50,018 bases of DNA from Spirogloea muscicola (Eukaryota > Streptophyta > Zygnematophyceae > Spirogloeales > Spirogloeaceae), in the NCBI GenBank assembly GCA_009602725.1, contig WELB01000220.1:7200-57217 (forward strand). Direction: 5' to 3'. Positions 4,228 through 38,813 of the stretch are shown piece after piece. The notes under the pieces are model-generated. The model made no database searches. It was given only the letters and a program-made list of their open reading frames with translations, and was not told where the DNA came from. Position 1 is the first letter of the stretch, and each line of letters begins with the position of its first letter. A program made the translations under genes and the position numbers.

Positions 4228-7124
4228 ATGCTGGGGGCTGCTAAGAGTCGCGGCGGCTCGCGCAGCTCTTCGCTCCGGCGCGCCGCTCGCTCTTACGGCA
4301 CCCGCAGCACGACTGCTGCGTCGAGGGCCGCCACTGCTGCAGGGGCCACCCTTCCCATCCCGCCAGCGGCTCCTCCAGTTCCTCCCCTGCTCTCAGCTCC
4401 AGCGAGTGCAGAGGCCGCCGCAAGCGAGGGTCGCAGCCCTCAGATTGTGCTCACGCCTGTGGCGACCACGACATCAACGTCGACACCGGGGCCCGAGTTC
4501 CTTGGCGTAGGAGTGTCTGCGCCTGTCGAGCCAGCCCAGCTGCTTGCGCAACCAAGCTCGGCCACCTAGGATGCAGACTCCGCGACCCCGAACATGGACC
4601 TGCGAGTCGGCATTGTCATCAGCCCACCACGACCTCGTGACTCCCCCACCTGGCGGCCACTGAGTGTGTCGGCTCTGCTCCGTCCCTCTCTTCCCCCAGC
4701 TCCATCCTTGCACTCTCCAGTACATCCCCCAGTGCCCGCCCCGGAGCCGCCACCGTTGCTCCCTCTACCTCCCCTGTCACCTCTACCTGTGACGCTGCCT
4801 GAGCGGGTTGTGGAAAGATGTCATCAAGCTGGAAGCCATCATGGACGTCATCGTCGTCGGCAGAGCCACACTCCTCAAGAGCGCCCAGCCCACACAGGCC
4901 TTGGAGCCCCAGACTCGCGGGTCCCCTGTCAGGGCTGCCAGGGCCGTTTCCTCCCGAGAGGGTCGCCACTCCATGCTCGAGCCTGCCAAAACCGCCAGAA
5001 TTGTGAAGCGCAGGCAGCAGCGTCGCACCTGCCGGGCACAGCCCGTCCTCCACCATCTCCCTCTTCCGAGAGCTGGAATTGGGCAGCCACAGTGGACCTC
5101 CTTCCCCTCCTCATCCCCGACGGACTCCACAACCTACGCCACATTCCACAATGGGCACGACGTGGGTGCTGCAAGGTGCTGACACCCATCCTCTCACGCG
5201 TGGAAGCTGATCCTCTGGACGAAGCGGCCTGGGCAATGTACCTGCTCTTTCCCAAGCTCGTGCTTGGCCCTCTTCCCTCCTTTGGCGTTGGTGGCCGCAA
5301 ATGCCTTCAGGACAGATTGGCTCGCTTTGCCAGCGGCAAGTGGGAGGAGCTGGCCCAGCAGCGTGCAGCAGCCGCTCGGGTCGCGCTCTCAGAACGACGT
5401 GCACGTGGAGGCACCCGCAACCGACCCTCTCAACAGTCCATGATTGGCAACCTAGCGCGTGCAAGACGCTTTGGCAGAGCAGGAGAGCTCTCTCGAGCGG
5501 CTCAGGCCCTCTGTCCCGACCCCTTGGCAGCCAACAATGATGCCACTGAGGCTACCTTGCGCCAGCTGCATCCTGCCCCTCAGAACCCTCTTGAGCCCTG
5601 GGTTGGCTAGCTCCCCACTCCTCTTGCACTCTCAGCAGAGGCGCTCCGCACGGCCCTCACCAAAGGCCCCCGAACGGTGTTTGGAGGCCCTTCTGGATGG
5701 CTCTTCGAGCACCTACGGGACATCCTCCAAAATGGAGACGAAAGAAGCTTCGCCCTGCTCCTCTCCACCTGCCGGCACATCACCAGAGCCACCGCTCCCC
5801 CGCGCATCGCCGACACTCTCAACTCCAGCCACCTGCTGGCTCTGACCAAGCCGTCAGGTGGTGTGAGGCCCATCGCCATGACCGAAGTCATCATGCGGCT
5901 GGTGACCAAGGCTTTGTGCGGCGAGCAAAAGTCCCGGCTGTCCACCCATTTTTCACCCCACCAGTTTGGTGCTGGCATGTCCTGCGGGGCAGAGGCCCTC
6001 GTCCACGGGATCCGTGCAGCACTGGATGTCAACCCATCACACATGGTCCTTGGACTGGACATAGACAACGCATTCAACACTGTGGAGCGCAGCGCCATCA
6101 TGGAGGAGCTGCGTGATCATTTCCCGTCCTTGATTTCATATTTCCTCATGGCCTATGGCCGGCCAGGGCTGCTGTGGTGTTCCGAGGAGTCTTGTACGAC
6201 CTTATGGTCCACAACTAGCACATGCCAGAGAGATCCCCTCAGCCCCATACTTTTCGCCTCAGCACATTCCCGGGCACTGAGACGCACCCAGAGCCTGCAC
6301 CCCAACCTCCTCTTCCCGTCCTACGCCGATGACACACATATCGTCGGCCCACCATCAATAATCATGGCGGCTTATCCCCTGCTCGTACACGAACTGAGCA
6401 CAATGGTCCTGCGGGTTTGCCCCACCAAGAACGTGGCATGGTCACCACACGGCCTCCCCACCAACCTCCAGCTCCCACCAGGCTGCCAGACCCCTGCCAA
6501 TGGGCTGGCTGCTCCCCATGGCGCTCCATCCCACGTTGCGGAGGACTTACGTGAACGTCTGCAGCAACACCTTGCCCCCCTTCCCTCCCTTCCTCTCCTC
6601 GGAGATCCGCAGCTGGCGCTGGCCATCCTTACTCGCTGCATTGGTCAACGAGCTGGCTACCTGCAGCGAACAGTCGCCCCAACGGACATGGTGGGCGAGC
6701 TGTACAAGGAGTTCGACACCTTCCTCCTGCAAACCCTGGCTTCCCTGATTTAACACCCATCCTTCCCCTCACCCTCATCCTCCCTGCAGGCATCCCTTCC
6801 CACACAAATGGGCGGCCTGAATTGCCCGGTCACTTGTACAGACTGCGCAGGCAGCCTTTCTCGGTTGCTGGCACCAGGTTGCCTCCTTTCTTCCCTTGCG
6901 CTTCCCTTGCCTGGCCGGCCCTGCAGCCGAGGTGGAGGCAGGCTCCTTGGCATTCCAAGTGCAATCGAGGAGCATCCGGGAGTCAGCACTCTGCTCCTTT
7001 TCCTCCCTACAAACCCTCCTCACCCCCTTCTCAGCGCTTGCTCAAGCACCAGACAAAGCGGCACAGCCTGCACTTCCAGGAGCCTAGCATCTCTGATCTG
7101 CGGCTGCTTAGCAGGGGTTACTGA
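4228..7124 (+). pseudogene. reverse transcriptase polyprotein of element 1 (two TAG stops, endonuclease lost)
   Basis: The coding part of element 1. It would bind and copy its own RNA at a nicked genomic target. Zinc finger, pre-RT region and RT lie in one frame, so the body is disrupted mainly by two amber codons rather than by frameshifts. The missing conserved G of QGDPL and the loss of the endonuclease segment between 6753 and about 7020 argue that it is inactive. Its C-terminal tail matches the other RGY-ended elements in this window. Confidence 0.75.
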
Positions 7125-7275
7125 GTGATTCGTAGCTTCTTTGTTCTCTTTGTTTCTTTGTGTGCTTGTTTTTCTTAGCGCTTCTTTCTTCTTTCCTTAG
7201 CGCTTCCCCTGGCCCCCTTCTCGTACTCTGTTCATTCTTTTTTAGGCTGGCTTTTCCAGCCCCTATTCTTCCGTC
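4228..7275 (+). mobile_element. non-LTR retroelement 1, decayed, with reverse transcriptase
   Basis: A single reading frame starts at the ATG at 4228 and runs to 6753, interrupted only by TAG codons at 4567-4569 and 5608-5610. In order it holds a Pro/Ser/Ala-rich N-terminus, a CCHC zinc finger at 4927-4986 (spacing C-x2-C-x11-H-x3-C), a region with HNLRHIPQWARRG typical of the segment before the RT, and the reverse transcriptase: KPSGGVRPIAMTE, the catalytic DIDNAFN at 6058-6078 and YADD at 6322-6333. The usual Q-G-D-P-L motif reads QRDPL. After the TAA at 6753 the endonuclease region is missing. A short tail in another frame ends SDLRLLSRGY at 7122-7124. A GGCTGGC hairpin lies at 7245-7261. 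N-terminal zinc finger plus RT suggests the R2/NeSL-like group with a restriction-like endonuclease. The right border is where subfamily A sequence begins. Confidence 0.8.
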
Positions 7276-7486
7276 TTCCGTATGCGTTTGGCCGTCTCGA
7301 TGCAGCGGTCCCTTGCCTTCGCTGTTCACTTGCGCGCAGGCCGGGCTTTGGCGGCGGCCTCCGGCTTCCGTCAGGGCGACGTCTGTCAGCCAGCTAGCCA
7401 CTCGGACTTGCATCTCCTGACTAGAGGTTACTGAGCGTTCCCTGGCTGATGTCTTAGTCTTAGTCGTTCGCACTCAGGCTTGAATG
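7276..7486 (+). mobile_element. 5'-truncated retroelement tail, subfamily A
   Basis: Starts abruptly in the C-terminal coding part of subfamily A (FRMRLAVSMQRSLAF) and runs through SDLHLLTRGY and its TGA (7432-7434) to CAGGCT at about 7473. It is nearly identical to 38650-38860 and, inverted, to the neighbouring copy. It is fused directly to the 3' end of element 1. Confidence 0.8.
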
Positions 7487-8052
7487 AAGCGCGGCCAGAT
7501 TGACTGGTGGCTGGGAAAGGCCAGCCCAAAGAAATGGACAAGGTCTGAGGGAGCCTGAGTGCGAACGACTAGGACTAAAACATCAGCCAGGGAGCGCTCA
7601 GTAACCTCTAGTCAGGAGATGCAAGTCCGAGTAGCTAGCTGGCTGAAAGACGTCGCCCTGACGGAAGCCGGAGGCCGCCGCCAAAGCTCGGCCTGCGCGC
7701 AAGTGAACCGCGAAGGCGAGGGACCGCTGCATCGAGACGGCCAAACGCATACGGAACACCTGAGCGAGGGACCCGGCGACGTTGAAGCCGGGCTGGTCGC
7801 CCTGCTGCCCGAGGCGGCGGGCCGCTGCACGCCGAGCCAGGCGGTGGAGCAAGTCAAGCCATTTCGAGCCAAAGGCTCCGTGCACGTCGACTGCCAGTGA
7901 AACGAACTCGTCTCCCACCGGGTGATCCGAGTACTTCCGTTCCTTGTCGCCCGCCGCTTGGCTGACTGCGCAGCCCGCCTCCTCCGACGAGCGCTTTGCG
8001 CTGCTGGAAACGAAGCTGTCGGTTGTGACGACGTCTGCGATGAGCCGAGGCT
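7484..8052 (-). mobile_element. 5'-truncated retroelement copy, subfamily A, inverted
   Basis: Read on the minus strand from 8052 down: the endonuclease end (ADVVTTD), the segment SSSAKRSSEEAG, then an uninterrupted frame at 7918-7598 (FGSKWLDLLHRLARRAAARR ... SDLHLLTRGY, stop), then the 3' UTR with the GGCTGGG hairpin at 7509-7526. This frame stays open across a point where the 38.5-kb copy has lost one base, so it is the better reference for the subfamily A C-terminus. The truncation near 8050 abuts plus-strand subfamily A UTR-like sequence. Confidence 0.8.
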
Positions 8053-8083
8053 CCCTCAGACCTTGTCCATTCCTTTCAACGTG

Positions 8084-8312
8084 CAGGGCGTGCTCTAAGT
8101 CGGGCCTCCGGCTTTCGTGGCGGCGCTCCAGCTCCCCAGATTAGCTTGTCAGATTTGTTTGTGCTCACCCGTGGGTACTAATGTCATCTTAGGTACCTTA
8201 GATTAGGTCTCCGTGTTATGTAGCATTGTTTAGTCTGCACTCGCCTCTGCCTGAACAATGTATTGGCTTGAATTGGCCTCCCTTTCAATTCATGCGCCCC
8301 GCGCGCCTTCTC
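8084..8312 (+). mobile_element. retroelement tail, subfamily C (copy 1)
   Basis: Plus-strand frame from about 8084 reads RAGRALSRASGFRGG and ends SDLFVLTRGY then TAA (about 8177-8179), followed by roughly 135 bp of 3' UTR ending in GCGCGCCTTCTCTCTC. From 8143 onward it matches 9127-9305 with only two differences that I can see. Confidence 0.75.
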
Positions 8313-8465
8313 TCTCTTTAGGCTGGCCTTTTCCAGCCCCTATCCTCAATGGGCGAGCCCTTTCTTTTCCAGCCACCAGTCAATCTGGCCGCGCTTCTTC
8401 TATTCTCATTGGGCGAGCACTGTCTTCTCTTTCCAGCCCGTATCCTTAATGGGCGAGCACTTCCT
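8313..8465 (+). repeat. short degenerate tandem repeat with GGCTGGC hairpin
   Basis: Starts with the hairpin GGCTGGCCTTTTCCAGCC at 8321-8338. The unit TTCCAGCCC-TATCCT-AATGGGCGAGC then recurs, with GGGCGAG at 8351, 8411 and 8451. Between the copies lies a piece of the subfamily A 3' UTR (CCACCAGTCAATCTGG, about 8374-8390). Confidence 0.6.
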
Positions 8466-8715
8466 TCTTCACCACGGAAGCCGTTAGCCTGGCCTGAAGC
8501 ACGCCCAGCACGCTGGTGTATCGCGAGTGCCTGGGCGAGAAAGAGCTCGCCTGTAGAGAAGAGGAGCTGGCAAAGCCAGCCCAAAAGGAATGGACAATGT
8601 CCAAAAACCAAGAAAGAGAGAGAAGGCGCGCGGGGCGCATGAATTGAAAGGGAGGCCAATTCAAGCCAATACATTGTTCAGGCAGAGTCGAGTGCAGAAA
8701 GAAGTGAGAGAGAGG
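8466..8715 (-). mobile_element. inverted, scrambled retroelement tail fragments
   Basis: On the minus strand: subfamily C UTR at about 8697-8610 (the reverse complement of 8230-8312), then the hairpin GCTGGCAAAGCCAGC at 8566-8580, then coding remnants AIHQRAGRASGQANGFRGEE at about 8535-8475. The last resembles the segment before the RGY terminus of the other subfamilies. The order UTR-hairpin-coding is not that of an intact element. Confidence 0.6.
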
Positions 8716-8879
8716 TCGGCCAACTGCGTCCACCCCAAGCGCCGTCTGTCAGCATTCGCGCCAGCGCCGAGGCGGCCCCCCCCTTCCGCCCCTATACCCT
8801 ACTCGAGAACATAGCGAGTCTGGGATATGCACGACGCGAGGATATGCTCCCCAGCCCAGATGGGTATGCCGGCAGCCTA

Positions 8880-9120
8880 TCTGTCATTTCTGCGTCGTCG
8901 AGTGTCAACCTGTCTGCAACGAGCTCAGGCGTATGCTCTGCATCAGAAAGCTGGTCGAGCCTTAGCTGCTGGCGCAAGAGCTAGTCAAATGCCGTCCGGT
9001 ATTCGAGCGTCAGCTAGCGACCTCTATGTGCTGACTCGTGGTTACTGAGCGGGTCAGCTTAGCAGCAGGTGACGTACATTTGTCCAATATGCTTGCCTTT
9101 GTACTTGTACTTGTACTTTC
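8880..9120 (+). mobile_element. 5'-truncated retroelement tail, subfamily B
   Basis: The frame ending at 9048 contains YALHQKAGRALAAGARASQ and ends SDLYVLTRGY, TGA. The UTR that follows (GCTTGCCTTTGTACTTG) recurs at about 35270 and 36230. The left border is not clear. Confidence 0.7.
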
Positions 9121-9356
9121 CCCAAGTTAGCTTGTCAGATTTGTTTGTGCTCACCCGTGGGTACTAATGTCATCTTAGGTACCTTAGATTAGGTCTCCGT
9201 ATTATGTAGCATTGTTTAGTCTGCACTCGACTCTGCCTGAACAATGTATTGGCTTGAATTGGCCTCCCTTTCAATTCATGCGCCCCGCGCGCCTTCTCTC
9301 TCTCTCTCTCTCACTTGGCCACACATGGCCTCCCCATCTCTTAATATACACGCATT
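9121..9356 (+). mobile_element. retroelement tail, subfamily C (copy 2), upstream of TRAPPC8
   Basis: Repeats 8143-8312 almost exactly: SDLFVLTRGY with its stop, the UTR, and GCGCGCCTTC followed by a (CT)n run at about 9293-9312. It continues into CTTGGCCACACATGGCC and CATCTCTTAATATACAC, which resemble the subfamily B UTR at 39230-39270. It ends about 50 bp before the TRAPPC8 start codon. Confidence 0.7.
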
Positions 9357-9407
9357 TCCGCGGGCCGGCGCCGCGGCGAGGCGCGGCGCCGCGGCGGCGG
9401 CGGCGCC

Positions 9408-12400
9408 ATGTTGCGCGCGGCGGTGCTGCGCGAGTCGGCGCCCGCGGTGCTGGTGCTGGCCGCGCCCGGCGCCGACGCCGCCTGCGCCAAAAATGGCGGC
9501 CTCTCCTTTGCCGACCTCCTCCGGCCCTACTCTGCGCTGCCGCCCGTCAACGGTAACCCTGCTCCCCCTCCTGCGCCGCCACCGTCGCAGTAACGCCCTC
9601 ACAGCACTGAAGTCCTCACGGCGGCCTCGCCTCGGCCCCGGAAGCGCCACTTATTCCATGCCGCTGTTGACGCAGTACCGGTGCGGACCGCCAGCGACCA
9701 GCCTTACCGGCTGCAGCACTTCCAGCTGCGCATTTTCGAGGCCTCGGAAGTGCGGCAGCCCGCCACCGCAGTGAGTCTCCGCGCACTCGGCTGGCTCGCT
9801 GGCTGTGCCAGGCTGCAGCTCATGTAGCGAGGTCTTCGCAAGCGCAGCTTCGCTGTGTGGGGTGTCTGGCCGCAGCTCATCTCGTTCGGCCTCGTCCTCA
9901 GTGTAGCTACCACCGTCACGTCGTGATGGCATTCCGCTCGGTGCCTTTGGCACCTCTCGTGCTTCTGCAGGGCTAGGCTCACTGCAGCAGCTTGCCTTGC
10001 CGTCTTCGCTCATTTGACCAGGATGCAGAGGCGTACCTCACCCAGCTTGTCACAAGCTCCAGCGAGGCGGCCGATGTCGAGCTCACAGGAGACCCCCGCG
10101 ACGTGCAGGCTGTGCTATCCAGTGAGTAGTCCATTGTCTCTTCACACCTTTCTTGCCTGACGTAGTGAAATTGTGGTCCTGCATCAGGAGACTACTTCGT
10201 GACTCAGTGTAAGACCAGATTCGGGGTTTCCATTGCAACTCTTAAAGACGTTTGAGAGGGGTTGCTTGAGTTGGCCAAACTCATGACACAACTCGTGAAG
10301 GCCTCGAAAAATAGCTTCAGCCTACGAGGAACTCTGCTTTGGCTTTATGCCTATGGAAGTTGTCCAGGAACAGCTAGTTAGACGCCTCTTGGTCAGCCTG
10401 CACATGACTTCTGTTAAACGATACGATTTGCTTGTTTGCAGTGGCTAAGTCAGAATCAGAGTCGTCATGGTATCAACGCTACTGCCAGGAATATATACGC
10501 ACATTGTACTTCTCTGAGCACGAGGCCCTCAATCATCCAGTGGCTTGTGAGTGACCGCTTTGTTCATCTTCCCAGCGGCTCAGCAAGGATGTGGACTGCT
10601 CAAGCAGCTGCAGTTGCATGACTCTACTGTGTCAGTGGACTTGACCCTCTGCGTGCATCTGTCGTGGGCACATAATTGTGCTTTGTGGCCTGATGTGGTT
10701 CGGGTGACCTGTGCTTGCCCTGGGCAGGCCTTCTGGTCGTACCTTCCACGGACAAGGACCCCATTAACGCTTTTGTGGATCTCTACAACACTGAGCACCT
10801 GCCTGCACTCTTCAACGAGGGAGCGATGGACCCGAAGATACACAAACATTTTGTGCTACTCCACGACATGCACAGTGGTCCCAGTACACGGTATGGCGTA
10901 CGATTGTGCACATACAGAACGCACAAATTCAAGATCCTTCAATTGTTGCCGCAGAATGGGAATGTGACTTTTCACTATCACCAGGCCAAGCTTGAGCATT
11001 GCATCCTTTGCCCATGGGCAAAAGATTACCCTTGCCTCATTTACTGTTTTGCGCCATTGTGTACCACCAACGTAATTGCTTGGCAAGCAGCCTGCTCGAT
11101 GCTATTTAGTGTAACGCTCATCATCAAATAAGTGGTTGTCCACTGCTCAAATAGGGCTGAGGAGATTATAAGCGAGATGAAGGGCACGCTTGGAGCCAAC
11201 AATTGTCACTTGCTCAGAATCAACTCTCGTCCTGCTGATGAAGCTGAGCCTCAAGCAGATATTTGGTCGAGCCATCGATTGACAGTTCTCAATCTCCCAA
11301 TGGAGGAGAAGGTGACTCCTAAGGCTTGGCGCCTTCTTTAGGCAAATCGCCTGTCAAATTTACAATGTGAAAGTGTGTGCAAAGCTGGGACTTCGAGAAC
11401 ACAGAATCTTCGATAGGTGCAAATCATGTATGTCAATCTAGGCTGTATTTTTGCAGAGTGGTTTGACGGTCCCAGTCAACTATATTGCTGTTGGCAGATG
11501 GAAACCACGCCAGCTGGGCAGCTTCGAGGCCAATACCTTAATCCAAATGACTTGAGACAGGTGCATGAAGCCTTTGAAGACAGCAGCAATTCGCTCAAGT
11601 ACAGCGATGCCCCTCAGCATCACACTTTTTCTCTCTTACTGCATGTGCTGCAAATGCTTGTCTATCAGCAGGAGCAGAAGTTGTACCAAAGGATCTTATG
11701 AGTGGCTGATTGTGCTTCAAGTATCACTTTCCCCTGCAGCTGCAGGAGTTTGTATCTGAGCTCGCCGTGAAGCAGATCATACCATATATGGAGCTCAAGA
11801 TTCGCAACCTCAACCAGCATGTGCGGCGTACTCCAGCCTCGGCACCTAGCTGGCAGAAACTTCTCTTAGAAACTTCTATGCAACATACAGGCACATATAC
11901 ACACACATGCGTGCACACAACTGCATGCAGAAACACCTGTGCAATGACACACACACGTACGCCTATACACTCGGGAACACACACACGCACGCACCCACAC
12001 ACTTGCATACGCACACACACAGAGAGGGGAAGGGAGGGCGAGGAGAGGGTGGGTGGGTGGGGGTTTTGGGGAAACCCCCTTTGCCGGCTGGGATATGAGA
12101 TGCCACTGCATTATGGAGCTGATTATGCTTTGGGAATGATGTTCAGGTCTCGGCAGCGAGGAAGGGCTTGAGAAACCAGCTGAAAAGCCTGTGGTTTCGG
12201 AAAGGCAAAGATGAACCTCAAGTCTCCCCCAATAGCTCCAGCACGTGAGTTGTCTTTCCGCCTGTCCTTGAGGGGCCGACAGGCTTCTATACAGGCGCAG
12301 ATGCTTGCTTGCTAGACCTTCAACTCAAGGCCCAGGCCAAGGACTTAAATCCTTGCTAGTGGTGATTGAACAGCTACTCCTACGGAAGTATGGAGCAGCA

Positions 12401-15400: not shown

Positions 15401-18288
15401 CCAGTGCTTGAGTTATGAGATTGCGCTTCCTGTGGTACCTGAAGGTCCGCCTGCGAATGAGAGCCCATAAGGCCGGGACGCTACAAGTAAAAGGGGTGAG
15501 GTGGATGCTGAGTGGCATCGCCCGTGGCAGTCAAGATTTCAGAACAAAGGCTCCGCGCAAGAAGCGCCCCAAAGGGGGCGGAAGAGAGCCAGTCATTCCT
15601 CCCCATCTCCGGCTGACTTTCCTTGTCATTCCGGTAAGAGCAGGCCTCCCTCCCTCTGTCCTCGACTGTAGGTAGAACCGTGTATCTTCGATCAACAAAG
15701 CAAATGGTGATATATGTGTGGGCTTTGGGCTGTGTATGCAGCCAATGCCGAGGCTCGGGGTGGAGGTCCACAGGCTCCCTGAGCGAGCAGCAGAGGGCGA
15801 GCTTCATTGTGCAACTCTTGAGCTTTTCAACAGCTCCTCTGTGCCTCTCAAGGTACAAGCTTAGAAGTGTTCATGTTTGAATTGCTGGTATTTGCATGTT
15901 GCTGTTGACACCTCTTGTCTCTACAATTTACAAAAAGGCTCGAGCAGCATGCAACAGAAGTAGCTTCTCACAATCTTTCTGGTGGCCATCCTGCAGGCTC
16001 TACGGGTGAAGACAAGCCATCCGCAAGTTGTCATGGCTGGCCAAGCAACCGACCTGAATGTCCAGGTTCCAGCCCACTTCGAAGTAACTCCAAATGGCGA
16101 CCATGGCAATCCTTGGCCTGACCAGAACAATGGCATGTTCACGTTCTTCCAGGTATTGCACAATACATGGACCATGTGGCCACTTGTGTGAACACACAAA
16201 AGCATTGTGACATTAAGAAGCGCTCTTTTTGCTCCAGGACGTCACACTCTTGGGCAGATCCAAGCTGCAGTGGCCCGTATGGCTGCACCTCCGGGGTACA
16301 GGAGACATCATTGTCAACCTGGTCTTTTATTACGAGCCCGACGTGCCGAGCACTACCATGCCCTTCCGCACTCTGTGTGTCAGCTTCCAGCTTCAGGTCA
16401 CATTTCTGTCCACTTTCCTTAATTATTCATCTGGAGGGAGCCTTGTCTTGCATGTCCCATGGGCTGTCCAAAGCTGATTCAGAGGCTGCTTCACTCTTAC
16501 CAGATTGTTCCAAGCATGAAAATGGGGCTCCAGATCAGGCCCAGCCCAAGCCAGCTAGCAAACAGCATCATGCGGCTGGACATTGAGAATGTCCATGCCA
16601 CGGAGAGCTTCTGGCTACGACAGGTGTCCCTTGTGGGGGCTGCGTGGAAGCTCACCCCACTGCTTCCACCTGGTGCTGAGAAAGGAGCAGCATTCTTGGT
16701 CGCGAGCGTGTCTCCGCCGCAGCTCCTTTCGCCGTCCCAAGCAACGTCCCTCTTCTTCCATGTGCAGGTTATAAACATGAGCCCTCGTTTTATGCACACA
16801 GGGTGTGTTGTTCTAGAAAGCCCCTAAATGTCATTACCCTTGTTTGAGAAAGAGCTACTTGACGTTGTGCGTGTTGCAGATTGACAATAGACAGGAAGAG
16901 AGGAAAGCACTGGTAAGCAATGCAGCACTTGGCAAGGAGGCTGTGCTTGATGTGAGTCGTCAGCCATTGTACAACTTCCATTGCCAGGAGCGCTCAGTGC
17001 TGCCGGCTAAGGTGAGTTCTAAGTGACATTCTAAGTGAAATGCGATTCTAAGTGAAATGCGCCTTTGCAACAGAAAGTCTCAGCGAAGGTGCAATGAGAG
17101 TTGCTTGAGCATTTGATATGCAGGGCAACCGTTCTTGCTCGGAACCAGACGTGGTCGTTGTGTGGGAGCATGCTGTAAGAAGCCCAGCAGGGGAGGGTTC
17201 AGCACCTTCTGTGCTGCAAATTGGGACGCATCACCTCTGTGATCAGAGGTCGGGCATGCGAAACCAGAGCTCAAGCGGGGGGCCTTTTGCATTGCTGGGA
17301 TGTACATGTGCATCAACTTATACGCCACTGCTTTTGCTCCGTCATTGCTGTGGCAGTATTGTCTCATGCACCTGCAAGTGGCCTCTCCGTCTACAGATGC
17401 TTCTGGCTGAACGACACTTTTATGCAGGCTAGATAGATGTTTGGTCTATTCATGTATGCACACAATTCAAGGTGTGCAGTTCCTCAGCTGCGCTTGTGGC
17501 CGCTGTCCAGATTCAGTACAGGGCAACCTGTGAGATGGGCGGTGCAAGGGCCGTCAATCATCCAACATGACTTTGCATCCCAAAGGATGTGTGAGATAAA
17601 TATCTCGATCGCTGTGCGTAATTGCTCCACTCACCTGGCATCAGTCAAGGTGGAGACAGTTGACCCAACCGCCAAGGTCTCAGGTGGCGAGCCTGTGGAA
17701 GACGCTCAAAGTGTTGACACCGGCATCTGGCACGTCGATGAACTAACCGAAGCCAGTGCAGCTGTCAGCAGCAGCAATAGCAAGATTTACCCTCCCAGTG
17801 ACAAGTCTATACGAGGGCTTCCCTGCGGCACTTCCCCTTGTAAGTGGTCACTTCCTTGGCACAATAATTGTCGCTGTACTTCCAAGTATATATACGCAAT
17901 TGAACCCCTGAGCATGACTTGCCTATCTTTGCCGTGCTCCTCATGTCATGACAATCGTTTGTCTGCAGCTGGCCGGTACATCTGGACAGGTATGACGAGC
18001 ACTTGTATTACTGCTCTCGAACCAGGGGCCACAGTCCATGTGCCACTCCGAGCGGCTGTGTATGCCAATGGGGTGTACGACCTGTCCGCATATACATTGT
18101 CGTGGCGCACCTCACCCTTATCGCTTGGCGACGCTGATCCCCCTGCTGGGGCTCTCCATTCGGAGCACAATGTCCGCTCCACAGCAGCTGACGTTGTCCC
18201 TATGGGTGCTGAAAGCGGCAGCGGCATGGGACACCCATTCTTTGTAGCAGTTATCAAGCTCGACTGCAATGTGGAGCAAACAACTTGA
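9408..18288 (+). CDS. TRAPPC8: TRAPPC8 (Trs85-like TRAPP complex subunit), spliced
   Basis: Subunit of the TRAPPIII tethering complex, which activates a Rab1/Ypt1 GTPase in ER-Golgi traffic and autophagy. The ATG at 9408 opens a GC-rich exon (9408-9552) with LSFADLLRPYSALPPVN. Exons read with matching phases: 9676-9770, 10022-10121, 10442-10546 (SSWYQRYCQEYIRTLYFSEH), 10728-10890 (FVLLHDMHSGPSTR) and 11155-11311 (AEEIISEMKGTLGANNCHLL). Others follow: about 11521-11560, 11746-11820 (IIPYMELKIRNLNQH), 12147-12244 (LRNQLKSLWFRKGKDEPQ), from 12372 (MEQQIRVLSDYSFMLQDYEL), the helical repeats (LLEQAAYCFLRATPPMIRKY), and the beta-rich C-terminal half (EEISVDVEFSNPLLIDLHVS; RLGVEVHRLPERAAEGELHC). The end is GHPFFVAVIKL, TGA at 18286-18288. 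Identity is strong over the whole length; some middle exon ends (12.5-15.6 kb) are uncertain. Confidence 0.9.
11885..12022. repeat. imperfect (CA)n microsatellite in TRAPPC8 intron
   Basis: CA/CG-dinucleotide-rich tract with many CACACA runs, inside the intron between the exons ending at 11820 and starting at 12147. Confidence 0.85.
12023..12079 (+). other. G-rich tract with a G-quadruplex-type motif
   Basis: Directly follows the microsatellite. Four G-runs with one-base T loops lie at 12047-12063 on the coding strand, followed by a small GGGTTT...AAACCC inverted repeat. This is the classic arrangement for a parallel quadruplex, here in an intron. Confidence 0.7.
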
Positions 18289-18729
18289 TTGCTGCTGTTG
18301 TAGGGAAATGGATGACATATGGTGTTATATCCCGTCTAGTTGTGTTCACTGCCTGTTAAGCAAACCTGCCTCCACCTTCAGAAACTTGAGCTCGCTGCAC
18401 AACTCTGCAACAAGGCGTAGCACACCCCACTGAAGGTGATAGATTCTGGTTCTCTGTGCTGCCATCCTTGGGAATGGCAGAAAGTGGTGCCTGCTTCATT
18501 CCAAGCACTTCAATCCATGTAGATCTTAAACATTCCTGTACATTCCTTTGGGCTGGCCTCTCACAGCCATTGCCGTAAATTGGAAGAGCTGTTCCTGCTA
18601 AAAGTGGTCATTGTAGGCGCAGATAGCTGCGCAATCCTGTGCATGTGAGCTGACAGTGGACCCTGTTGTCCATAAGCCTAGCTGCCGAAATAAACGGTGG
18701 GCATCAGCTGCACTGGCTGCGAGTATGCA
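18289..18729. other. region between TRAPPC8 and the next gene, with retroelement debris
   Basis: Holds the TRAPPC8 3' UTR and then a hairpin-repeat copy (GGCTGGCCTCTCACAGCC, 18551-18568). The sequence after it aligns with the one after the 35.6-kb hairpin (TTGGAAGAGC). ASMHQKLGSPAW at about 18718 may be a worn remnant of the HQKAGRA segment. No intact gene seen. Confidence 0.5.
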
Positions 18730-19300: not shown

Positions 19301-19513
19301 GGCTGGCCGCAGTCTGGGGGCTCCCACTTGAGCCAAGCCGAGCAGACTGGGGCCGGGCAAGCCGGAGGTTCCAGCGCGAGCGCCCGCCACAGCGAACAGC
19401 GGAGGCGACAGTGGCAGCTGCGGCGGAGAGGGGAGCCAGGCGGGCTTACGAGGCTTGCGGCGGCGCCGCGAGGCGGTGCCGGCGCCGGCGGCGGCGGCGG
19501 CGGCGGACGAGGC

Positions 19514-24447: not shown

Positions 24448-25941
24448 TCAGGTGCGGCCGACGCTCCAGACTCGGATGTGGCCGTCAGTGTAACCACCAT
24501 ACAATGTGCTGCCATCTGAGCTCCAGTTCAAGCTCGTGCAGTATGGAATCTGACCATGGGAGGGGGAGGGGGCAGGGAGCACAACAAAGCACGGAAGTTA
24601 GAGGTGACTGCTTGACAGACATCCGTTAGCCATGGCAAAGCACTGCAGGTGATGACACCCAGAAGCCTGACATGTCAAAAAGCCTTTGCAGGGGCCTCTT
24701 TCGGTCCACCGGTTGGAGCTAGTGCATGAAGACCAGGCTTGGTGCATCAGCTGCGAGAGAGCAGAGCAGGGCAGCCCACCTGCGCCTTCTTGGAGACAAG
24801 CGCGAAGGCCTCAGGGCGCAGCTCGTCCACGATGCTCTTGCTCTCCAGGTCCCAGATCTTGATGCAGCTCTGGGTTGCGGCGCACAGCCAGTAGCGGTTG
24901 GGCGAGAAGCAGAGGGAGTGGATGATGTCGCCGGCGTCCAGGGAGTAGAGGCGCTTGCCCTCTGCCAGGTCCCACAGCATGGCCACGCCGTCCTTGCCCC
25001 CGGACGCGCACAGGGAGCCGTCCGGCGACACCGTGGTCGTGTTGATGTATCCTGCAGCACGCGGTCGCCGGGTGCAACAAACGGGCGCAGTTAGCTAAAC
25101 AGCAGCCGCCACTAAAGCAACATAAAACTCAGTGCAGTCCAAGGCCAGGAGGCGAGAGCGGAAATTTTATCGTCCAATTCACAGTGAGAGCAGGAGCTGT
25201 CGATCACGTCTTCAAGGCCAACGCTGTAAATATTCAATACATCAATAAAGTACAGCTTACAGAATATGAACAGTTTACAGAATATGATCGAATCAATGAT
25301 AATGGAGAGAGGCGCTCACCAGTGTGGCCGACGAGGTTGGTGCGGAGCTTGCAGTTGGTGAGGTTCCAGACCTTGACAAGCTTGTCCCAGCCGCCGGAGA
25401 CGATGATGGGGCTGTTGGGCACGGGCGAGAAGCGGACGCAGCTCACCCACCCGGCGTGCGCCTCCTGGTCCTGGATGGTGTACTTGCACTCGCCCAGCGT
25501 GTTCCACAGCTTGATGGTGCGGTCGCGGCTGCCGCTCACGATCTGCCGGTTGTCGGTGCTGAACGCCACCGACAGCACGTCCTTCTGGTGGCCCACGAAG
25601 CGCCGCGTCGTCGTGCCCGTGTTCAGGTCCCACAGCCGCAGCGTGCCGTCCCAGCTGCCGCTCAGCGCGAACTGGCCGTCGGAGCTGATCACCACGTCCT
25701 GGACGAACCCGCCGTGGCCCGTCAGCCGCCGCTTGGCCACGCCGTAGGACGCCTCGGGGCCCGCGCCGCCCGCGCCGGGGTCCGCGGCGGCCGCGGCGGC
25801 GCGCGAAAGCGACCAGACAATGAGCGAGCGGTCGCGCGACGCCGAGAGCAGCGTGTCGCTGTTGTCCAGCGGGCACGCGATGCTCGTCACCCAGTCCGAG
25901 TGGCCCTTCAGCACGCCGCGCGCCTGCAGCGTCTCCGCCAT
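24448..25941 (-). CDS. RACK1: RACK1, seven-bladed WD40 scaffold of the 40S ribosome
   Basis: Beta-propeller protein on the head of the 40S subunit; it also scaffolds signalling proteins. Three exons with matching phases: 25941-25320 (ATG at 25939-25941, starting [20 protein letters not shown]), 25051-24780 ([40 protein letters not shown]) and 24549-24448 ([20 protein letters not shown], ending VWSVGRT, TGA). Blade motifs [36 protein letters not shown] and [17 protein letters not shown] match plant RACK1 closely. A small Ala/Gly-rich insertion ([12 protein letters not shown]) lies between the first two blades, probably in a surface loop. Divergent from CTR9, with which it shares a GC-rich 5' region. 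Length is about that of the family. Confidence 0.96.
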
Positions 25942-26222
25942 GGCGCCGGAAACGGCGGCGACAAATGCGGCAAAGGCGGCAAAAGCGGCAAAGGCCGGCG
26001 GCGGCGGCGGTTGTGACGGCGACGGCGACGGTGGCGGCGGCGGCGGCGGCGGCGGCGGAGGTGGGGGGCGGGTTCGGGGTTTAAGGGCACGGAGATGTGC
26101 GGGTGGGGTCGCTTTCACACCTGCCGGTGGTGGGCTGGGCTGAGCTGAGCCGGCGATTGAGCCACATCGGACGGCAGGCGGCCGCGCCCGCCACGCCGCG
26201 GGGGGCTTTGCGGACTCAAACG
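25942..26222. promoter_or_regulatory. GC-rich bidirectional promoter region between RACK1 and CTR9
   Basis: The two genes point away from each other across this interval, which is dense in GGC/GCC triplets (a run at about 26030-26065). Both 5' UTRs and both promoters must lie here or inside the first exons. No TATA box was seen. Inference from gene order and composition. Confidence 0.6.
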
Positions 26223-32200: not shown

Positions 32201-33300
32201 AACACGCTCTTGCTGATGAAGCACGGCGCCAGCGTGAGGCAGATAGGAAGCTGCAGGTCAGCTGGACAGGCTTTCAGCTGGGAAGTAATGTCTGTCCAAA
32301 TTTTTCTGTCTGCTAGCCGTCCTTACACCCATCTTAGCGTCAAAAGGATTGACCTCTGTCAATGAAAGGTATCTATACATAAGTATGACGCTCTTAAACA
32401 GGAAGCGAAGGCGAGAAAAGAGGAGCTTGAGAGGTTGGCAGTCGAGCAAGAGCAGCGGATGGAAGCAGTGAAGGTGTGATTAGGCAGATACCTTGAGCAC
32501 TTGCAGCAGCACATAAGCTGAATGGCTTCCAGCAACATGCATGGATGAGCATATTTGTGGCAGACATCTTACAGCCTTAGAAGGTCCATGGGGTCATCAT
32601 GGCAATGCTTGTGTCGCTGTTGGTTTTCAGGAGGAATGGCAGCGTCACAAAGCCCGCCTGCTGGACACGAAGGAAGAGAAGTCGGACGAGGAGAAGGTCG
32701 ACGGCGAGGAGCGGTCAGACAAGAAGGAGAAGCGGCGGAGGAGGAGGAGCAAGAAGGATAAACAGGCGCGCAGTGAGGGGAGGAGCATGTGGGAGGACGA
32801 AGAGGACGAAGAAGGCGCCACAGTCACGGCACTATATGACAGCGACGAAGGGGCTGCGCCCAGAGAGGAGGGGTCAGTACCAATGCAAGCGAGACCCAAG
32901 ACAGAGGCCAATGGTGCTCAGGATCCTGCGGAGGATATGGAGAGGGAGGGGACAGATGCTCTTGCAGCCGCCGGCTTACTAGATGACTATGATGATGACA
33001 ACGATCGGACACCAGTGAGCATGCATCCTCATTGTCACAGACATCCACTGCAACTCTGCATCTGCTTTTAGTCCAGGTGCTTCACCTCTGTCTGCATTGA
33101 GAAATTTATTTATCGGTCTGCTGTTCAAAGCATGACCACTTGCTCTGTGACTGACATGGAAGCAGGAGGGAGAGTCTGGACTGGTGCACAAGCGAAGAAA
33201 GAGAGGGCGTGTAGTTGACCGAGATTCGGATCAGGAGGATGAGCACAACAAAGTAGCACAAGAAGACGGGGAGAGGTCAAACCTTGGGGAGGAAGGTTAG
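26223..33300 (+). CDS. CTR9: CTR9, TPR subunit of the PAF1 complex (spliced, start codon unresolved)
   Basis: TPR scaffold of the PAF1 transcription-elongation complex, which promotes co-transcriptional histone marking in the nucleus. The N-terminus matches the family ([35 protein letters not shown]) but has no in-frame ATG; the frame is open back to 26097. Exons with consistent phases include 26560-26626, 26763-26957, 27350-27501, 27717-27770, 27934-28011, 28395-28609, 28770-28854, 28973-29073, 29222-29314, 29420-29488, 29682-29774, 29918-30139, 30245-30325, 30429-30587, 30696-30791, 30912-31013, 31108-31215, 31316-31540, 31644-31694, 31804-31878, 32003-32065, 32179-32256, 32402-32473, 32631-33014 and 33166-33300. 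TPR units run through 27.3-31.5 kb. The C-terminus is a coiled coil ([11 protein letters not shown]), then Lys/Arg-rich ([13 protein letters not shown]), then acidic, as in the family. The exon near 28050 is the least certain. Confidence 0.93.
27181..27292 (-). repeat. telomere-like TTTAGGG units in a CTR9 intron
   Basis: TAGGG/TTTAGGG-like units (AGTTTAGGGTTTGG, TTTAGGGTTTAGG) in the intron between the exons ending at 26957 and starting at 27350. Orientation is opposite to the tracts at 20 kb. Confidence 0.65.
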
Positions 33301-33711
33301 GCCTTGGAATGCAAGGGATAGTCAAGTACAGGGTGCCCCTGAAAAGTCAAAGTAGAGGGCAGATGTCTAGCTTGACCAATTCGAGACTGGCACCGATGCA
33401 CTACTAGTACTGAGGGCTCTACTGCGCTTTTGCCATGCTCAATCAGGAGAGCTCCCTTTATGGACTAAATGCTGCTGATACTACCCTTACTTCTCATTAG
33501 TTTGTCAAATAGTCCCTCGACAAGTGTTCTGTACACTATTACTGCCAATGATATCAAATGATCCAAATATCGTAAATTGTTCAAATGTGCCAGCAGTCAA
33601 AATGGCAAGTCCTGCTGATAAGATGAATTCTCAGCGAGGTGCTGAGTGCTGAAGACTTTCTTGCTTCAGCGAGGTGCTGAGTGCCAAAGGCTTCCTCGCT
33701 TCGAGTCTACG
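33301..33711. other. convergent intergenic region, no gene seen
   Basis: About 410 bp between the CTR9 stop and the DUF1279 gene stop. A short repeat (TTCAGCGAGGTGCTGAGTGC) occurs twice near 33630-33690. Nothing else recognised. Confidence 0.5.
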
Positions 33712-34682
33712 TCAAGGCAGCGGTGGAACGTCATCAGAGTCAACAGGCTTCTTTCCAATCCAACCTGCAACGATGGGCGTCAATGCAACGGTGGGCGGGA
33801 AGCGAATGGGAGACGCAGCCTTGTGGGCTGCATAAGCCAGCGCCACTGTGCCAACGGTCTCCCCAGTCTGGCCCACTTGCACACCCACCTGCACGATGAA
33901 GCAAGAGGAACATCTACTGCGTTGGCATCTGACCGCAGCTGAGAAAGGCAGATTGCGGTCAATGCCTATGAAGTGCCATACAGAAGAGCTGATACAGACA
34001 AATTCTAGACGAGCTGTGCAAAACAATTCTGCACCACACCAGCCGCTTACCTTCTCTAATAAGGCTGGGACGTCGACGCCGGCGCTGAAGAGGAGGTAGA
34101 AGAGGGAGAAGGAGACGCCGGAGAGGGAGATGGAGGTGGCCAGGTAGGCGACGCCGTAGCGGGCCAGCAGGTCCTTGGCGCTCACCTTGGACGCGCCGTC
34201 CTTGGACCGCAGGGCCTGCAGGACGAAAGGCGCGCGGTGCGCATGAATTGAAGGGAGGCCAATTTGAGCCTTACAAACTCCTGGTGACGAGCAACTTAGC
34301 TGGCTAAGTGGTCCTCTAGTAACCACAACTGAGCACAGGAAGGAGGCCCTGGTGAGGCGAGCTGGGCCGGGCCAGGCCAGAGTGCCGGCAGCCGGCCATA
34401 TCGAGCAGCCGAGTTGAACCCAGCTCGGAAATTGATGGGCCCGCACCTTCCACAGGCCGGCCTCAAGGCCCCACTTGCGGGTGACCGCGTCGACGTCGTC
34501 GCCTTGCCCCGGTGGCAGCTCCTCCCGTTTCTCCTGCTCCTGCTCTGCGGCGCCCCGCGGGGCAGCCCCCACCGCCCGCCAGGAGTTAGCCGAGCGCCAG
34601 TGGCGACGGCGGCACCGGCCGCACCGGCGGCGGCGGCGGCGGCGGCGGGCGGCATCATGCGGAGCCCACCGGTGGCGGCGGC
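33712..34682 (-). CDS. DUF1279 (FAM210-like) organellar membrane protein, 5' end in gap
   Basis: Small membrane protein of the FAM210/DUF1279 family, which in other eukaryotes acts in mitochondria or plastids; its biochemical role is unsettled. Exons on the minus strand: 34682-34447 (into the gap; Ala-rich, then KREELPPGQGDDVDAVTRKW, possibly part of a targeting peptide), 34215-34051 (DLLARYGVAYLATSISLSGV, a membrane segment, then LLFSAGVDVPALLEK) and 33888-33712 (GETVGTVALAYAAHKAASPI, then RFPPTVALTPIVAGWIGKK, TGA). All joins are in phase 0 with GT-AG borders. The first intron carries a small inverted piece of retroelement subfamily C UTR (34231-34272). The start codon is not visible. Confidence 0.88.
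34231..34272 (-). repeat. subfamily C retroelement UTR fragment in DUF1279 intron
   Basis: GCGCATGAATTGAAGGGAGG and neighbours match the reverse complement of the subfamily C tail at 8262-8305 with a few changes. It lies in the intron between exons 1 and 2. Confidence 0.75.
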
Positions 34683-35114
34683 NNNNNNNNNNNNNNNNNN
34701 NNNNNNNNNNNNNNNNNNNNNNNNNNNNNNNNNNNNNNNNNNNNNNNNNNNNNNNNNNNNNNNNNNNNNNNNNNNNNNNNNNNNNNNNNNNNNNNNNNNN
34801 NNNNNNNNNNNNNNNNNNNNNNNNNNNNNNNNNNNNNNNNNNNNNNNNNNNNNNNNNNNNNNNNNNNNNNNNNNNNNNNNNNNNNNNNNNNNNNNNNNNN
34901 NNNNNNNNNNNNNNNNNNNNNNNNNNNNNNNNNNNNNNNNNNNNNNNNNNNNNNNNNNNNNNNNNNNNNNNNNNNNNNNNNNNNNNNNNNNNNNNNNNNN
35001 NNNNNNNNNNNNNNNNNNNNNNNNNNNNNNNNNNNNNNNNNNNNNNNNNNNNNNNNNNNNNNNNNNNNNNNNNNNNNNNNNNNNNNNNNNNNNNNNNNNN
35101 NNNNNNNNNNNNNN
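34683..35114. other. assembly gap (432 N)
   Basis: Run of N beginning inside a GGC-repeat-rich first exon (DUF1279) and ending inside a retroelement tail. Confidence 0.99.
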
Positions 35115-35335
35115 CCTTGCACCAGAAAGCTGGGCGAGCTCTAGTAGGTGGCAGAAGGGCTCCGTTCCTGGCATCTAGTATTCATGCATCGAGTAGTGAC
35201 CTTTATGTTTTGACCCGTGGTTATTGAGCGGGTCAATCTGCTGTAGGTTATGTAGATTTTTAGATGTGCTTGCCTTTGTACCTGGCCATTTGGCCTACAT
35301 TTCTTTCTAATACACGATCTTTTCTGGAATGGAGG
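35115..35335 (+). mobile_element. retroelement tail, subfamily B, adjoining the gap
   Basis: Starts at the gap edge with LHQKAGRALVGGRRAPF and ends SDLYVLTRGY, TGA (35225-35227). The UTR shares GTGCTTGCCTTTGTACCTGG and the GGCC-type motif with other B copies. The rest of the copy may lie in the gap. Confidence 0.75.
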
Positions 35336-35402
35336 GTCTGAAAGGGCCAGAAGGCGCCAAGTAGCCAAACCCACTATCCGTGACTTATGCAAGCAGATGG
35401 AC

Positions 35403-35660
35403 GCTCAACAACCTTTAGTCAGCAACTGCAGATAGGAATAACTAGTGGGCGAAAAAACTTTGGCCTGGTGGAGCCCGGAGGCAGCAGCCAAGGTGCAGCC
35501 TGCCCGCAAGTGCACGGTAGAAGCCAAGGAATGCAGGGAGACGGTAAGGCTCATCCTGTGCACCTGAGCAAGCGACTCGACGTCATTGAAGCTCGGCTGC
35601 TCGCTCTGCTGTCCATTTTCAAGAAGGGCTGGCTTTTCACAGCCCTCGCCCCCTTTGGAA
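35403..35660 (-). mobile_element. diverged, inverted retroelement tail with hairpin at its 5' side
   Basis: Minus-strand frame 35620-35405 reads SLAQVHRMSLTVSLHSLAST and ends SYLQLLTKGC, TAG. This aligns residue by residue with subfamily A (SLAQVFRMRLAVSMQRSLA; SDLHLLTRGY). The hairpin GGCTGGCTTTTCACAGCC (35627-35644) sits exactly where the coding similarity stops. Confidence 0.7.
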
Positions 35661-36116
35661 GAGCCTCTTTGCGCACTGTATGCGCGTGTATCGCTGGAAC
35701 TCCGCTTTGCACGGGCGCCACGGAGCTGTGTAAATTGGCTATGAGTATGATATTGAAGGCCGGCCAAACCAAGCTAGTGAAGTGTTGGTAAGAACAAGAG
35801 AACAGTAGGGGCTAAAGTAACAGAACGAAAAGTGGGGGGCGGTAGCTATTATTTGGAGCTCATGAGTACAACGTGACATAGAGGGCTTTGTGCCTGCCAA
35901 GCCCAAGTGTGAGATGTGCGGCTAATGACAGATACCACCACCCCGGTGTGCGGCGACGTCAAAGTGTACGAAGGCATAGGATGGGGCCAAATGACGAAAC
36001 ATCATGAAGTGCGAAGGCGTCTGGAGGAGTAGGAGCTCAACCAGGCGCTCTCTCACATCCTCCCACAGAGCCCAACCTCTGCTCGCTGGCAAGGCTAGTC
36101 CACCCATTCCTCTCGA
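35661..36116. other. unassigned sequence between retroelement fragments
   Basis: No coding sequence or RNA gene recognised. Its composition is like the surrounding intergenic DNA. Confidence 0.4.
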
Positions 36117-36310
36117 ATTTGTCTATTCATCTTAGGCTGGCCTTTAACATCCATCGCCACATGAGCGACTTCTATGTGCTGACTCGTGGTTACCGGGTCA
36201 GCCTAGCAGCAGGTGATGTACATCTGTCAATTTACTTGCCTTTGTACTTGGCCACTCAGGCCCTCCAGCATTTAGTACACACTCCAATTTCCTTGGGAGA
36301 GCTTTCCTGA
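36117..36310 (+). mobile_element. short hairpin-plus-tail fragment, subfamily B
   Basis: GGCTGGCC at 36135 leads straight into NIHRHMSDFYVLTRGY (the stop codon is lost, GGTTACCGGG) and the B-type UTR (GTACTTGGCCACTCAGGCCC). Almost the whole coding part is missing between hairpin and terminus. Confidence 0.7.
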
Positions 36311-36590
36311 TCAGTAGACAGCTTTTGGAAGTGAGTCGCCTTCTGCAAGACTCTGACTTGCCTCGCACACGGCCGTCAAATATAGGTTGTTCCTACTTGC
36401 TACCTAAGGGAGGGAGTGGTGAGAGAAACAAAGATAATCCAAGGGGGGCGATGGCTGTAAAGAGAAAGTGGCTCAAAGGGGCAAGGTTATGAACTTTGAC
36501 TGGTCTGAAGGGGCCAAAAGCGCTTATTAAAAGCTGGGCCGGAACAATGAATCACGTAGGATTTGGACTGTGAAAGAAAAGCGCTTCCAG
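36311..36590. other. unassigned sequence left of the large retroelement
   Basis: No gene seen. Ends with an inverted copy of the GGCTGGC hairpin repeat (about 36588-36606). Confidence 0.4.
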
Positions 36591-36623
36591 ATGTGAAGGC
36601 CAGCCCAAACATAGAATGGAGCG

Positions 36624-38813
36624 GTGCACACCAGGCCCCTCGTCCTCTCCCTGCCCCAGCTGTGCTTCGCTGTTTCCATGTACCGCCTGGTGGGACGGGC
36701 ACTCTGGCAACAGCACGCCGCTGCGGCCCAGACACACCTGGCCCCACACCAGTATAGCGCAGGCCTGCGGAGCAGCGGCGAAGCAGTGGTCCATGGGGTG
36801 CAGGCTTCCCTCGACTTGCACCCCGAGTGGGTGGTGTTGGCAGTGGACTTCCGCAACGCGTTCAACTGCGTCGACCGCGCAGCTGTCGCCGAGGAGCTCC
36901 GTGACGCCTTCCACACTCTGCTGCCGTTCTTCCGGCTGGGCTACGGCCAGCCCAGTGATCTCCTATGGCGGCTTGGAGACGGAGGGGTGGAGGTCCTTCA
37001 GTCTTCCACAGGCACGCGTCAGGGGGACCCGCTGGCGGGGTTCTTCTACGCGCTGGCCCACGACCGCGCCCTGAAGGCCACGGCAGCTGCTCACCTGGGC
37101 GTCCTCATGCCCACGTATGCCGACGACACCACCCTAGTCGAGCCAGCAGACGAGGTCTTGGCTGCCTTTGCCACCCTCGAGGCGCAGCTGATGGAGATTG
37201 GCCTGGACATCCGCGCGTCGAAGTGCAGCGCTTGGTCCCCACAAGGGTTGCCAGCCCTCCTCCGCCTACCCTCCGGCTGTCAGACACCAGCGGGGGGCCT
37301 CACACTCCTCGGGGTTCCCTTGGGATCACCGGTCTTCGTGGACGAGCAGCTGCGGAGCAAGCTGCAGGAGCACCTCAGGCCGGTGGCCCGCCTCCCGGAG
37401 CTGCGCAACATGCAGCTAGGGCTCGCCATGCTGACGCGCAGCATAGCCCAACGTCCCCTGTACCTGGCCCGAGCTCTCCCCCCCTCCCCGGCGGCGCGGG
37501 CTGCCTATGCAACTTTTGATGCAGGTCTCCTCGCCAGCGCAGCGGCCCTGGTCCAGCACCCGGCCTTCCTGGCGACGCCGGCTGCCGTGCACCAGGCCTC
37601 CCTGCCTGTGAGCCGCGGGGGTTTGGGCTGCCGTCCGCTGGCTCGTGCCTGCCGGGCAGCCAACCTGGGGAGTTGGGCGCAGGTTGCGTTGTCGGTGGCC
37701 CAGCGTTTCATCCGGCATGGGGGTCGCCTTCTGGAGCAGGCGGCAGCGGACGTGGAGACTGGCACGTTGCCCTTCCAGGCGGCTCTCCGCTCTGCCCGGG
37801 ATGCGCTGCATGCAGATCACCCCGTCCTGGTGCCACGGGCCGTCCCGTTCGCGTACCTCGCGCGTACGGCCGACCTCCGGGCCCAACCTCCCTTCATGGC
37901 AGAGGTAGATGCGGCCTCCTTCACCACGGCGATGGGGCTTTTGCCATCGGCCGACCTCCGGGAGCGCGCGCGGTTGCTCTCGGCATCCTCACCAGGGGCG
38001 GCAGCTTGGTTGTGTGCCCTGCCTATCCACGACGCGCTCCGCATGCCCGACGACGCCTTCCGCACGGCGATGCACCGCCTCCTCAGCCTCCACCCACCCT
38101 GCCTCAGTGGAGTCCAGCAGTGTGAGCGGAGAGCGCGATTCCGACGCGGCATCGTTGGCAGCTCACATGCTCAGGTGCGCATGGGGCGGGGAGCGGACAG
38201 GAACACACGACCTGCTGCGGAGTGCCATGTTTGGCATCTCTGTCGAGGCCGGTTCTGCGGTGGCGCTTGAGAACGCCAGCGTCATGCCTCCGACCGCTGG
38301 GGCGGATGGCCGCATCCACACCCGGCGCGCCGACCTCGTCGCCAGCGCGCTCGGCGGGGGGCCTCGGCTCATCGCCGACGTTGTCACGACTGACTGCTTT
38401 GTTTCCAGCAGCGCCAAACGCTCGTCGGAGGAGGCGGGCTACGCAGTCGGCCAAGCGGCGGGCGAAAAGGAACGGAAGTACTCGGATCACCCGGTGGGAG
38501 ACGAGTTCGTTCCGCTGGCAGTCGACGTGCCGAAGCCTTTGGCTCGAAATGGCTTGACTTGCTCCCCCGCCTGGCGCGGCGTGCAGCGGCCCGCCGCCTC
38601 GGGCAGCAGGGCGAGCAGCCCGGCTTCAACGTCGCCGGGTCCCTCGCTCAGGTGTTCCGTATGCGTTTGGCCGTCTCGATGCAGCGGTCCCTCGCCGTCG
38701 CGGTTCACTTGCGCGCAGGCCGAGCTTTGGCGGCGGCCTCCGGCTTCCGTCAGGGCGACGTCTTTCAGCCAGCTAGCTACTCGGACTTGCATCTCCTGAC
38801 TAGAGGTTACTGA
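36624..38813 (+). pseudogene. RT-endonuclease ORF of element 2 (two frame changes, no 5' part)
   Basis: Target-primed reverse transcription enzyme remnant. Frame 1 covers RT and linker, frame 2 the endonuclease, frame 3 the C-terminus. The second change (about 38529-38535) is a one-base loss: the inverted copy at 7.9 kb has GTGCACGGAGCC where this copy has GTGCCGAAGCC. The first change near 38140 cannot be checked against another copy in this window. The N-terminal zinc finger and first RT motifs are absent. Confidence 0.8.

Follow-up and report, generated by a model that had tools for sequence, protein, structure and literature searches.

A ten-residue C-terminal tail under purifying selection in restriction-like endonuclease retrotransposons of the alga Spirogloea muscicola

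In the zygnematophycean alga Spirogloea muscicola, we find that a clade of non-long terminal repeat (non-LTR) retrotransposons, comprising a single open reading frame (ORF) and of the restriction-like endonuclease (RLE) type, encodes proteins that end in nearly the same ten residues, hereafter the tail, directly before the stop codon. The tail came to attention in a 50,018-nt stretch of contig WELB01000220.1 (assembly GCA_009602725.1, positions 7,200 to 57,217 of the forward strand), hereafter the window. Purifying selection on the tail is about as strong as that on the best protected regions of the enzyme, and because the tail is as tightly conserved as those parts, the ten residues probably do a job. 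What makes the tail stand out is its contrast with the stretch before it, not its conservation as such. The reading that we favour, to which we give a little less than even weight, is that the C-terminus forms an arm, with a spacer as tether and the tail docking on the element's own protein or ribonucleoprotein (RNP), which may latch the endonuclease during target-primed reverse transcription.

The window's own assembly (153 Mb, 471 contigs) was searched with protein queries, each of which gave at least 150 matches, many with long open frames. Before any selection, 19 of the 20 unmasked longest frames ended in the tail (8/8 in a first set, 11/12 in a second), with the consensus S-D-[LFV]-x-[LV]-[LV]-[ST]-R-[GN]-[YH]-stop; in the exception, L022, the frame is shifted and the tail lies in another frame. 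The tail is also visible at three loci that are mostly masked (L008, L010, L011) and stands at the expected distance in 15 of 17 further loci, seven of which are open back to the reverse transcriptase (RT) domain. The 26 continuous tailed frames used below comprise 19 that were kept if ending in RG-, RNY or RNH and seven that were walked back from the tail; as these frames were chosen by their ending, quoting 26/26 would amount to circular reasoning, and 19/20 is the figure free of such selection. Asn replaces Gly in the tails of L030, L031 and L044 (SDLRLLSRNY, SDVRLLTRNH and SDLRLLTRNY), L114 ends in SNLFVLTRGY-stop, and at L113 the frame runs on past the tail SDMHVLTRGN. No intact tail was found at the expected place in L043 (rearranged), L112 (stops inside the RLE), L048 (nested fragment only) and L013 (no motif match); the masked loci L032, L115 and L116 have no readable tail. 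In 60 sampled copies, 20 each of the subfamilies that we label e-, d- and c-type, the plain family tail and its stop were retained in 19, 17 and 13 copies, respectively, the c-type count allowing Thr or Ser at position 7. One family with 1267-codon frames occupies at least nine places among the matches listed, and the protein of an RT-coding fragment in the window (5611..6753) is about 91% identical to it. Short RT matches to Pfam RVT_1 in this genome presumably belong to LTR elements. Scans of IMG/VR confirmed no relatives; GTDB contigs yielded two distant ones, of which L111 ends differently and L110 runs off its contig before the end, and these two, as queries in the algal genome, returned mostly known places, with five new places read.

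Selection was assessed on 16 representatives of the 26 frames, with 10 near copies left out. The representatives are 43% to 99% identical over their last 780 residues and fall into four deep clades (L004/L021, L007/L024, L028/L045 and ten others). Over the 105 pairs that are less than 75% identical, the tail has an amino acid identity of 0.73, the helical segment upstream of it 0.65, the RT core 0.64, the RLE region 0.54 and the pre-tail spacer 0.30; in the same order, the ratio of nonsynonymous to synonymous differences per site (pN/pS) is 0.32, 0.38, 0.38, 0.45 and 0.74, with pS saturated. Unsaturated values of the corresponding substitution ratio (dN/dS) were obtained from seven sister pairs sharing no branch. 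Of seven regions, the tail has the lowest value (0.06), followed by the helical segment (0.07), the RLE (0.11), the post-RLE spacer (0.14), the RT core (0.16), the thumb/linker (0.21) and the pre-tail spacer (0.33). In these pairs, 5.5 of 30 differences in the tail are nonsynonymous vs. about 21.8 expected (P ~3e-9); with just 30 differences, the tail is indistinguishable from the helical segment in constraint. A contrast with the preceding stretch as steep as that of the tail is seen in 2 of 632 protein windows, the tail counted. Position 4 of the tail varies freely, and a Ser two positions upstream of the tail does not vary across 14 of 14 rows. The original prediction had held that the peptide is a fixed extreme C-terminus past the endonuclease region, conserved at the protein level in diverged subfamilies. 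These data support it, and neither of the two observations named as refuting it was made: the tail dN/dS is far from 1, and the subfamilies, being down to 43% identical, are not near-identical recent copies.

We considered whether the conservation might instead lie at the level of RNA or DNA, the tail-coding stretch belonging to a 3' signal that the RT recognizes or the copies being alike from recent spread, a reading that we regard as highly improbable. Truncated copies do keep their 3' end and some families consist of recent, nearly identical copies, as this reading would have it, but identity at four-fold third bases is 0.33 in the tail vs. 0.31-0.39 elsewhere, giving no sign of RNA-level constraint, and pS in the tail is saturated at 0.76. 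In addition, Ser codons in the tail are of both the TCN and the AGY class, Arg codons are of both AGR and CGN, and the sister-pair dS of the tail is 0.64. The four-fold sites, the codon switches and this dS speak against an RNA-level signal as the main cause, and we reject it as such. Also against it, the 3' untranslated regions (UTRs) of different deep clades mostly show no relationship (z ~0, with a maximum of 3.8 for L028 with L035); they are related inside the largest clade (z 6 to 26), and so are those of L004 and L021 (z 24). Thus the earlier claim that UTRs differ between subfamilies holds between deep clades, and fails within the largest clade and between types e and g.

The proteins that carry the tail have, in order, an N-terminal CCHC finger pattern, RT, a CCHC knuckle, an RLE-like region, a helical segment ending in RAGRAL, the spacer and the tail. 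Pfam RVT_1 matches all 12 members of alignment A1 and 5/5 full frames; the knuckle pattern C-x-C-x(10-14)-H-x(3-5)-C lies between RT and endonuclease region in 26/26 rows, and the N-terminal CCHC-type pattern is found in 19/19 long frames. Residues D621, D636 and K666 are invariant in alignment A1 and fit the PD-(D/E)xK motif; the endonuclease part matched nothing in Pfam or PDB convincingly. No LTRs were present when the ends of copies were compared in seven families, d-type copies are variably 5'-truncated, and the flanks of compared copies differ from locus to locus, so that no single insertion target is seen. The label "R2-like" fits as to domain order (finger pattern, RT, knuckle and RLE-like residues), but the differing flanks do not support membership in the R2 clade, and in the window no match to an Rfam family attained the gathering score. 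HERO, NeSL/Utopia, CRE and R4 are RLE-type like the elements here, in which no match to Ulp1 protease, RNase H or apurinic/apyrimidinic endonuclease (APE) was found at E 0.1 in five full frames. Dualen/RandI elements come from green algae. They too are non-LTR elements with an RLE, which they are reported to combine with an APE.

In 31 of 34 rows, and in all 57 measurable copies of the 60 sampled, 17 residues separate RAGRAL from the tail; L001, which the search pattern failed to pick up, shows this spacing when aligned, and the three unmeasured copies have a mutated RAGRAL. In its aligned part, 0 of 13 columns of the spacer are gapped, although it is the fastest-changing region; being fast in sequence and constant in length, it reads as a tether. 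We surmise that this spacer would extend from the last helix and that the tail, with its hydrophobic residues, its Arg and its free C-terminus, would plug into a putative fixed site on the element's own RLE, linker, thumb or RNP, and the docked tail might then hold the endonuclease in place while the target primes reverse transcription. It is the near-fixed spacing together with the terminal position that leads us to favour a docking arm over a free host-binding motif. Comprising one acidic, one or two basic and several hydrophobic residues, the tail looks a poor nucleic-acid binder alone, so that binding of RNA or DNA by the tail on its own seems unlikely; a host factor is possible as its partner. 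A reading close to that of a docking arm, differing mainly in that the tail is counted as part of the domain, is that the tail forms the final strand or helix of the RLE fold itself, looking separate because of a free loop before it. This reading would also account for the near-fixed spacing, and the C-terminal fold was solved neither in the model nor in PDB comparisons here, but we deem it unlikely because R2Bm stops at about the point where spacer and tail begin here. R2Bm (length 1114) has 88 residues after Lys1026 vs. 110-117 after the Lys of the K..Y..DHP motif in the elements here, an excess roughly equal to the 27 residues of spacer and tail, the catalytic Lys here being assigned by motif, a guess on which the comparison depends.

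That assignment is one of several points that weigh against the docking arm. The spacer is 24 residues long in L041 and 18 in L046. As many as 84 of the 632 protein windows are as identical as the tail or more, and 144 have no more parsimony steps, with the tail counted in both. An AlphaFold model of the C-terminal 150 residues, covering window proteins only, had a mean pLDDT (predicted local distance difference test) of 46 and was not used. Among 20 c-type copies of one family, pN was highest in the tail (0.075), where pN/pS was 0.25 vs. 0.18-0.25 in the three preceding stretches; this sample shows no extra constraint on the tail, and is a weak test since its copies were drawn by protein score. 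Finally, a motif that binds a host factor could equally follow a tether of fixed length.

Such a motif would be a short linear one with a free C-terminus, recruiting a host factor, such as one of chromatin, replication or nuclear import, for targeting or for transport of the RNP, and we view it as possible, if on the improbable side. It would agree with a tail that is short, exactly terminal and more conserved than its flanks, with a free position 4 among fixed ones, as in docking motifs, and with the fact that all subfamilies share one host genome, yet a free motif would have no need of a spacer of fixed length. PCNA-type motifs and nuclear localization signals do not seem to fit the tail. 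Quite improbable, in our estimate, is that the tail acts at the stop codon while still a nascent peptide, slowing termination and holding the enzyme on its own mRNA (cis preference). The stop lies directly behind the last conserved residue in 26/26 continuous frames kept, and the 3'UTR to be bound comes next, with a length of 95-133 nt in six families as counted up to the last base common to two copies (the values of 83-84 for L023/L024 are bounded by the end of the sequence stretch analysed); the type of stop codon (TGA, TAA or TAG) varies, which would not be expected of this reading. Known arrest peptides usually require residues further upstream, whereas the upstream residues here form a nearly free spacer. 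That the tail is a new C-terminal docking signal of long interspersed nuclear elements (LINEs), either as an obligatorily terminal host-factor motif or as a stop-codon nascent peptide explaining cis preference, seems to us doubtful.

In the window itself, a six-frame scan with a loose motif returned ten tails and three unrelated strings, and a tighter motif returned the ten tails and nothing else (Table 1), so that all ten peptides originally named were recovered. Nine of the ten stand directly before a stop; the tail at 36164 reads through, TGAG being absent after TAC. The window tails belong to the 3' ends of RLE-type non-LTR retrotransposons and represent about four lineages rather than ten independent cases, as judged by mutual DNA identity in a self-comparison of the window: 87-96% among the copies at 7402, 7601 and 38781, 98% between those at 8149 and 9135, and 72-88% among those at 9016, 35195 and 36164. 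The a-type fragment at 7071..7184 shares its ending with the a-type frames at L025-L027. The RAGRAL segment, predicted to be shared upstream of the tail, is present in seven of the ten (worn to RAGCTL at 35437) and missing at 7092, 9135 and 36164, where similarity to other copies starts with the tail itself or 16-21 bases ahead of it. Non-LTR copies often lose their 5' end and retain their 3' end, and this retention in 5'-truncated copies, with truncation seen in the d-type, accounts for the many tails in the window.

Table 1. Element pieces in the window (positions of the 50,018-nt stretch).
Position	Strand	Feature	Tail	Further evidence
5611..6753	+	RT-coding fragment, e-like element		Pfam RVT_1 6e-12; genome matches
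7071..7184	+	a-type 3' fragment, SDLRLLSRGY-stop	7092-7121	
7273..7480	+	c-type 3' fragment, SDLHLLTRGY-stop	7402-7431	
7480..8055	-	c-type 3' part: end of RLE-like region, helical segment, RAGRAL, spacer, tail, 3'UTR	7630-7601	
8075..8317	+	d-type 3' fragment, SDLFVLTRGY-stop	8149-8178	
8836..9107	+	e-type 3' fragment (at least these bounds), SDLYVLTRGY-stop	9016-9045	
9119..9303	+	shorter d-type 3' fragment	9135-9164	
35118..35284	+	g-type 3' fragment, SDLYVLTRGY-stop, adjoins masked stretch	35195-35224	g-type frames of L020/L021
35408..35617	-	worn c-like 3' end, SYLQLLTKGC-stop	35437-35408	
36164..36254	+	e/g-like fragment, similarity from tail onward, SDFYVLTRGY without stop	36164-36193	
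36615..38859	+	c-type element: RT, CCHC knuckle, RLE-like region in shifted frames; SDLHLLTRGY-stop	38781-38810	RVT_1 1.5e-10
39089..39217	-	c-type element: last tail codons and 3'UTR, tail to tail with the copy at 38781		

Several 3' ends lie tail to tail or in tandem within a few hundred bases, at 7264-7759 and 38781-39217 of the window and at loci L015 and L016, the last with four tails inside ~1.3 kb; these close or nested ends look as if copies preferentially insert into the 3' ends of other copies. By eye, some d-type copies seem to sit inside the 3'UTRs of other elements, and a UTR motif was found in 3 of 12 usable 3' flanks (of 20) of d-type copies vs. 0.2% of shuffles, the flanks being only ~20-25 bases. 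Copy L099 of this type breaks off in its 3'UTR into a long A tract, and the others end pyrimidine-rich. Several 5'-truncated d-type copies (L090-L109) start at nearly one place, TCTTCATCAACG; as the sample came from a 42-residue query, these starts do not demonstrate a unit. A short interspersed element or other short mobile unit beginning at the tail was rejected, since the start shared by most matches (query 72-74) is the start of the window's a-type piece and full a-type frames cross it. As to the 3'UTRs, 5 of 7 sequences (those of L004, L006, L025, L028 and L002, in 4 of 6 families), though otherwise mostly unrelated, contain a perfect hairpin with a stem of 5 bp or more, of the GGCTGG/CCAGCC type or GGCCA/TGGCC, at 25-32 nt from the 3' end, with no hairpin of this length in those of L021 and L007; it may be a recognition element for the RT, but 466 of 1400 shuffles had one anywhere and the evidence is weak. 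Elsewhere in the window, ARAGORN predicts a tRNA-Ser (gct) at 17713-17804 on the minus strand, and an open frame with WD repeats at ~25234-26080, also on the minus strand, presumably resembles RACK1.

In the literature searched, we recognized no account of such a tail on these enzymes. R2 chains are the best solved-structure matches to the element profile, over the RT part only, and R2 is 28S-specific, unlike the elements here with their differing flanks. In passages of the R2 and Utopia papers (PMC4640811, PMC12180492, PMC10499050, PMC5678591, PMC13188248), R2 has the same order of N-terminal finger, RT, CCHC knuckle and C-terminal RLE as the elements here, and Utopia is likewise described as having one ORF with an N-terminal zinc finger, RT, and a finger plus RLE. 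Those passages describe no conserved C-terminal tail of R2, and in the Utopia text the term "C-terminal" occurs 0 times. The same sources report R2 proteins made with C-terminal TwinStrep, 3xFLAG and His tags, which suggests that R2 has no need of such a tail.

RLE-type LINE enzymes are being developed into tools for gene insertion, and R2 proteins, as far as these sources go, are commonly tagged at the C-terminus; in the clade described here, constraint on the final ten residues is among the strongest in the whole protein. Removing or capping these ten residues offers a simple test of how the endonuclease of an RLE LINE is held or guided, and the tail is a sequence mark by which the clade could be recognized in other genomes.

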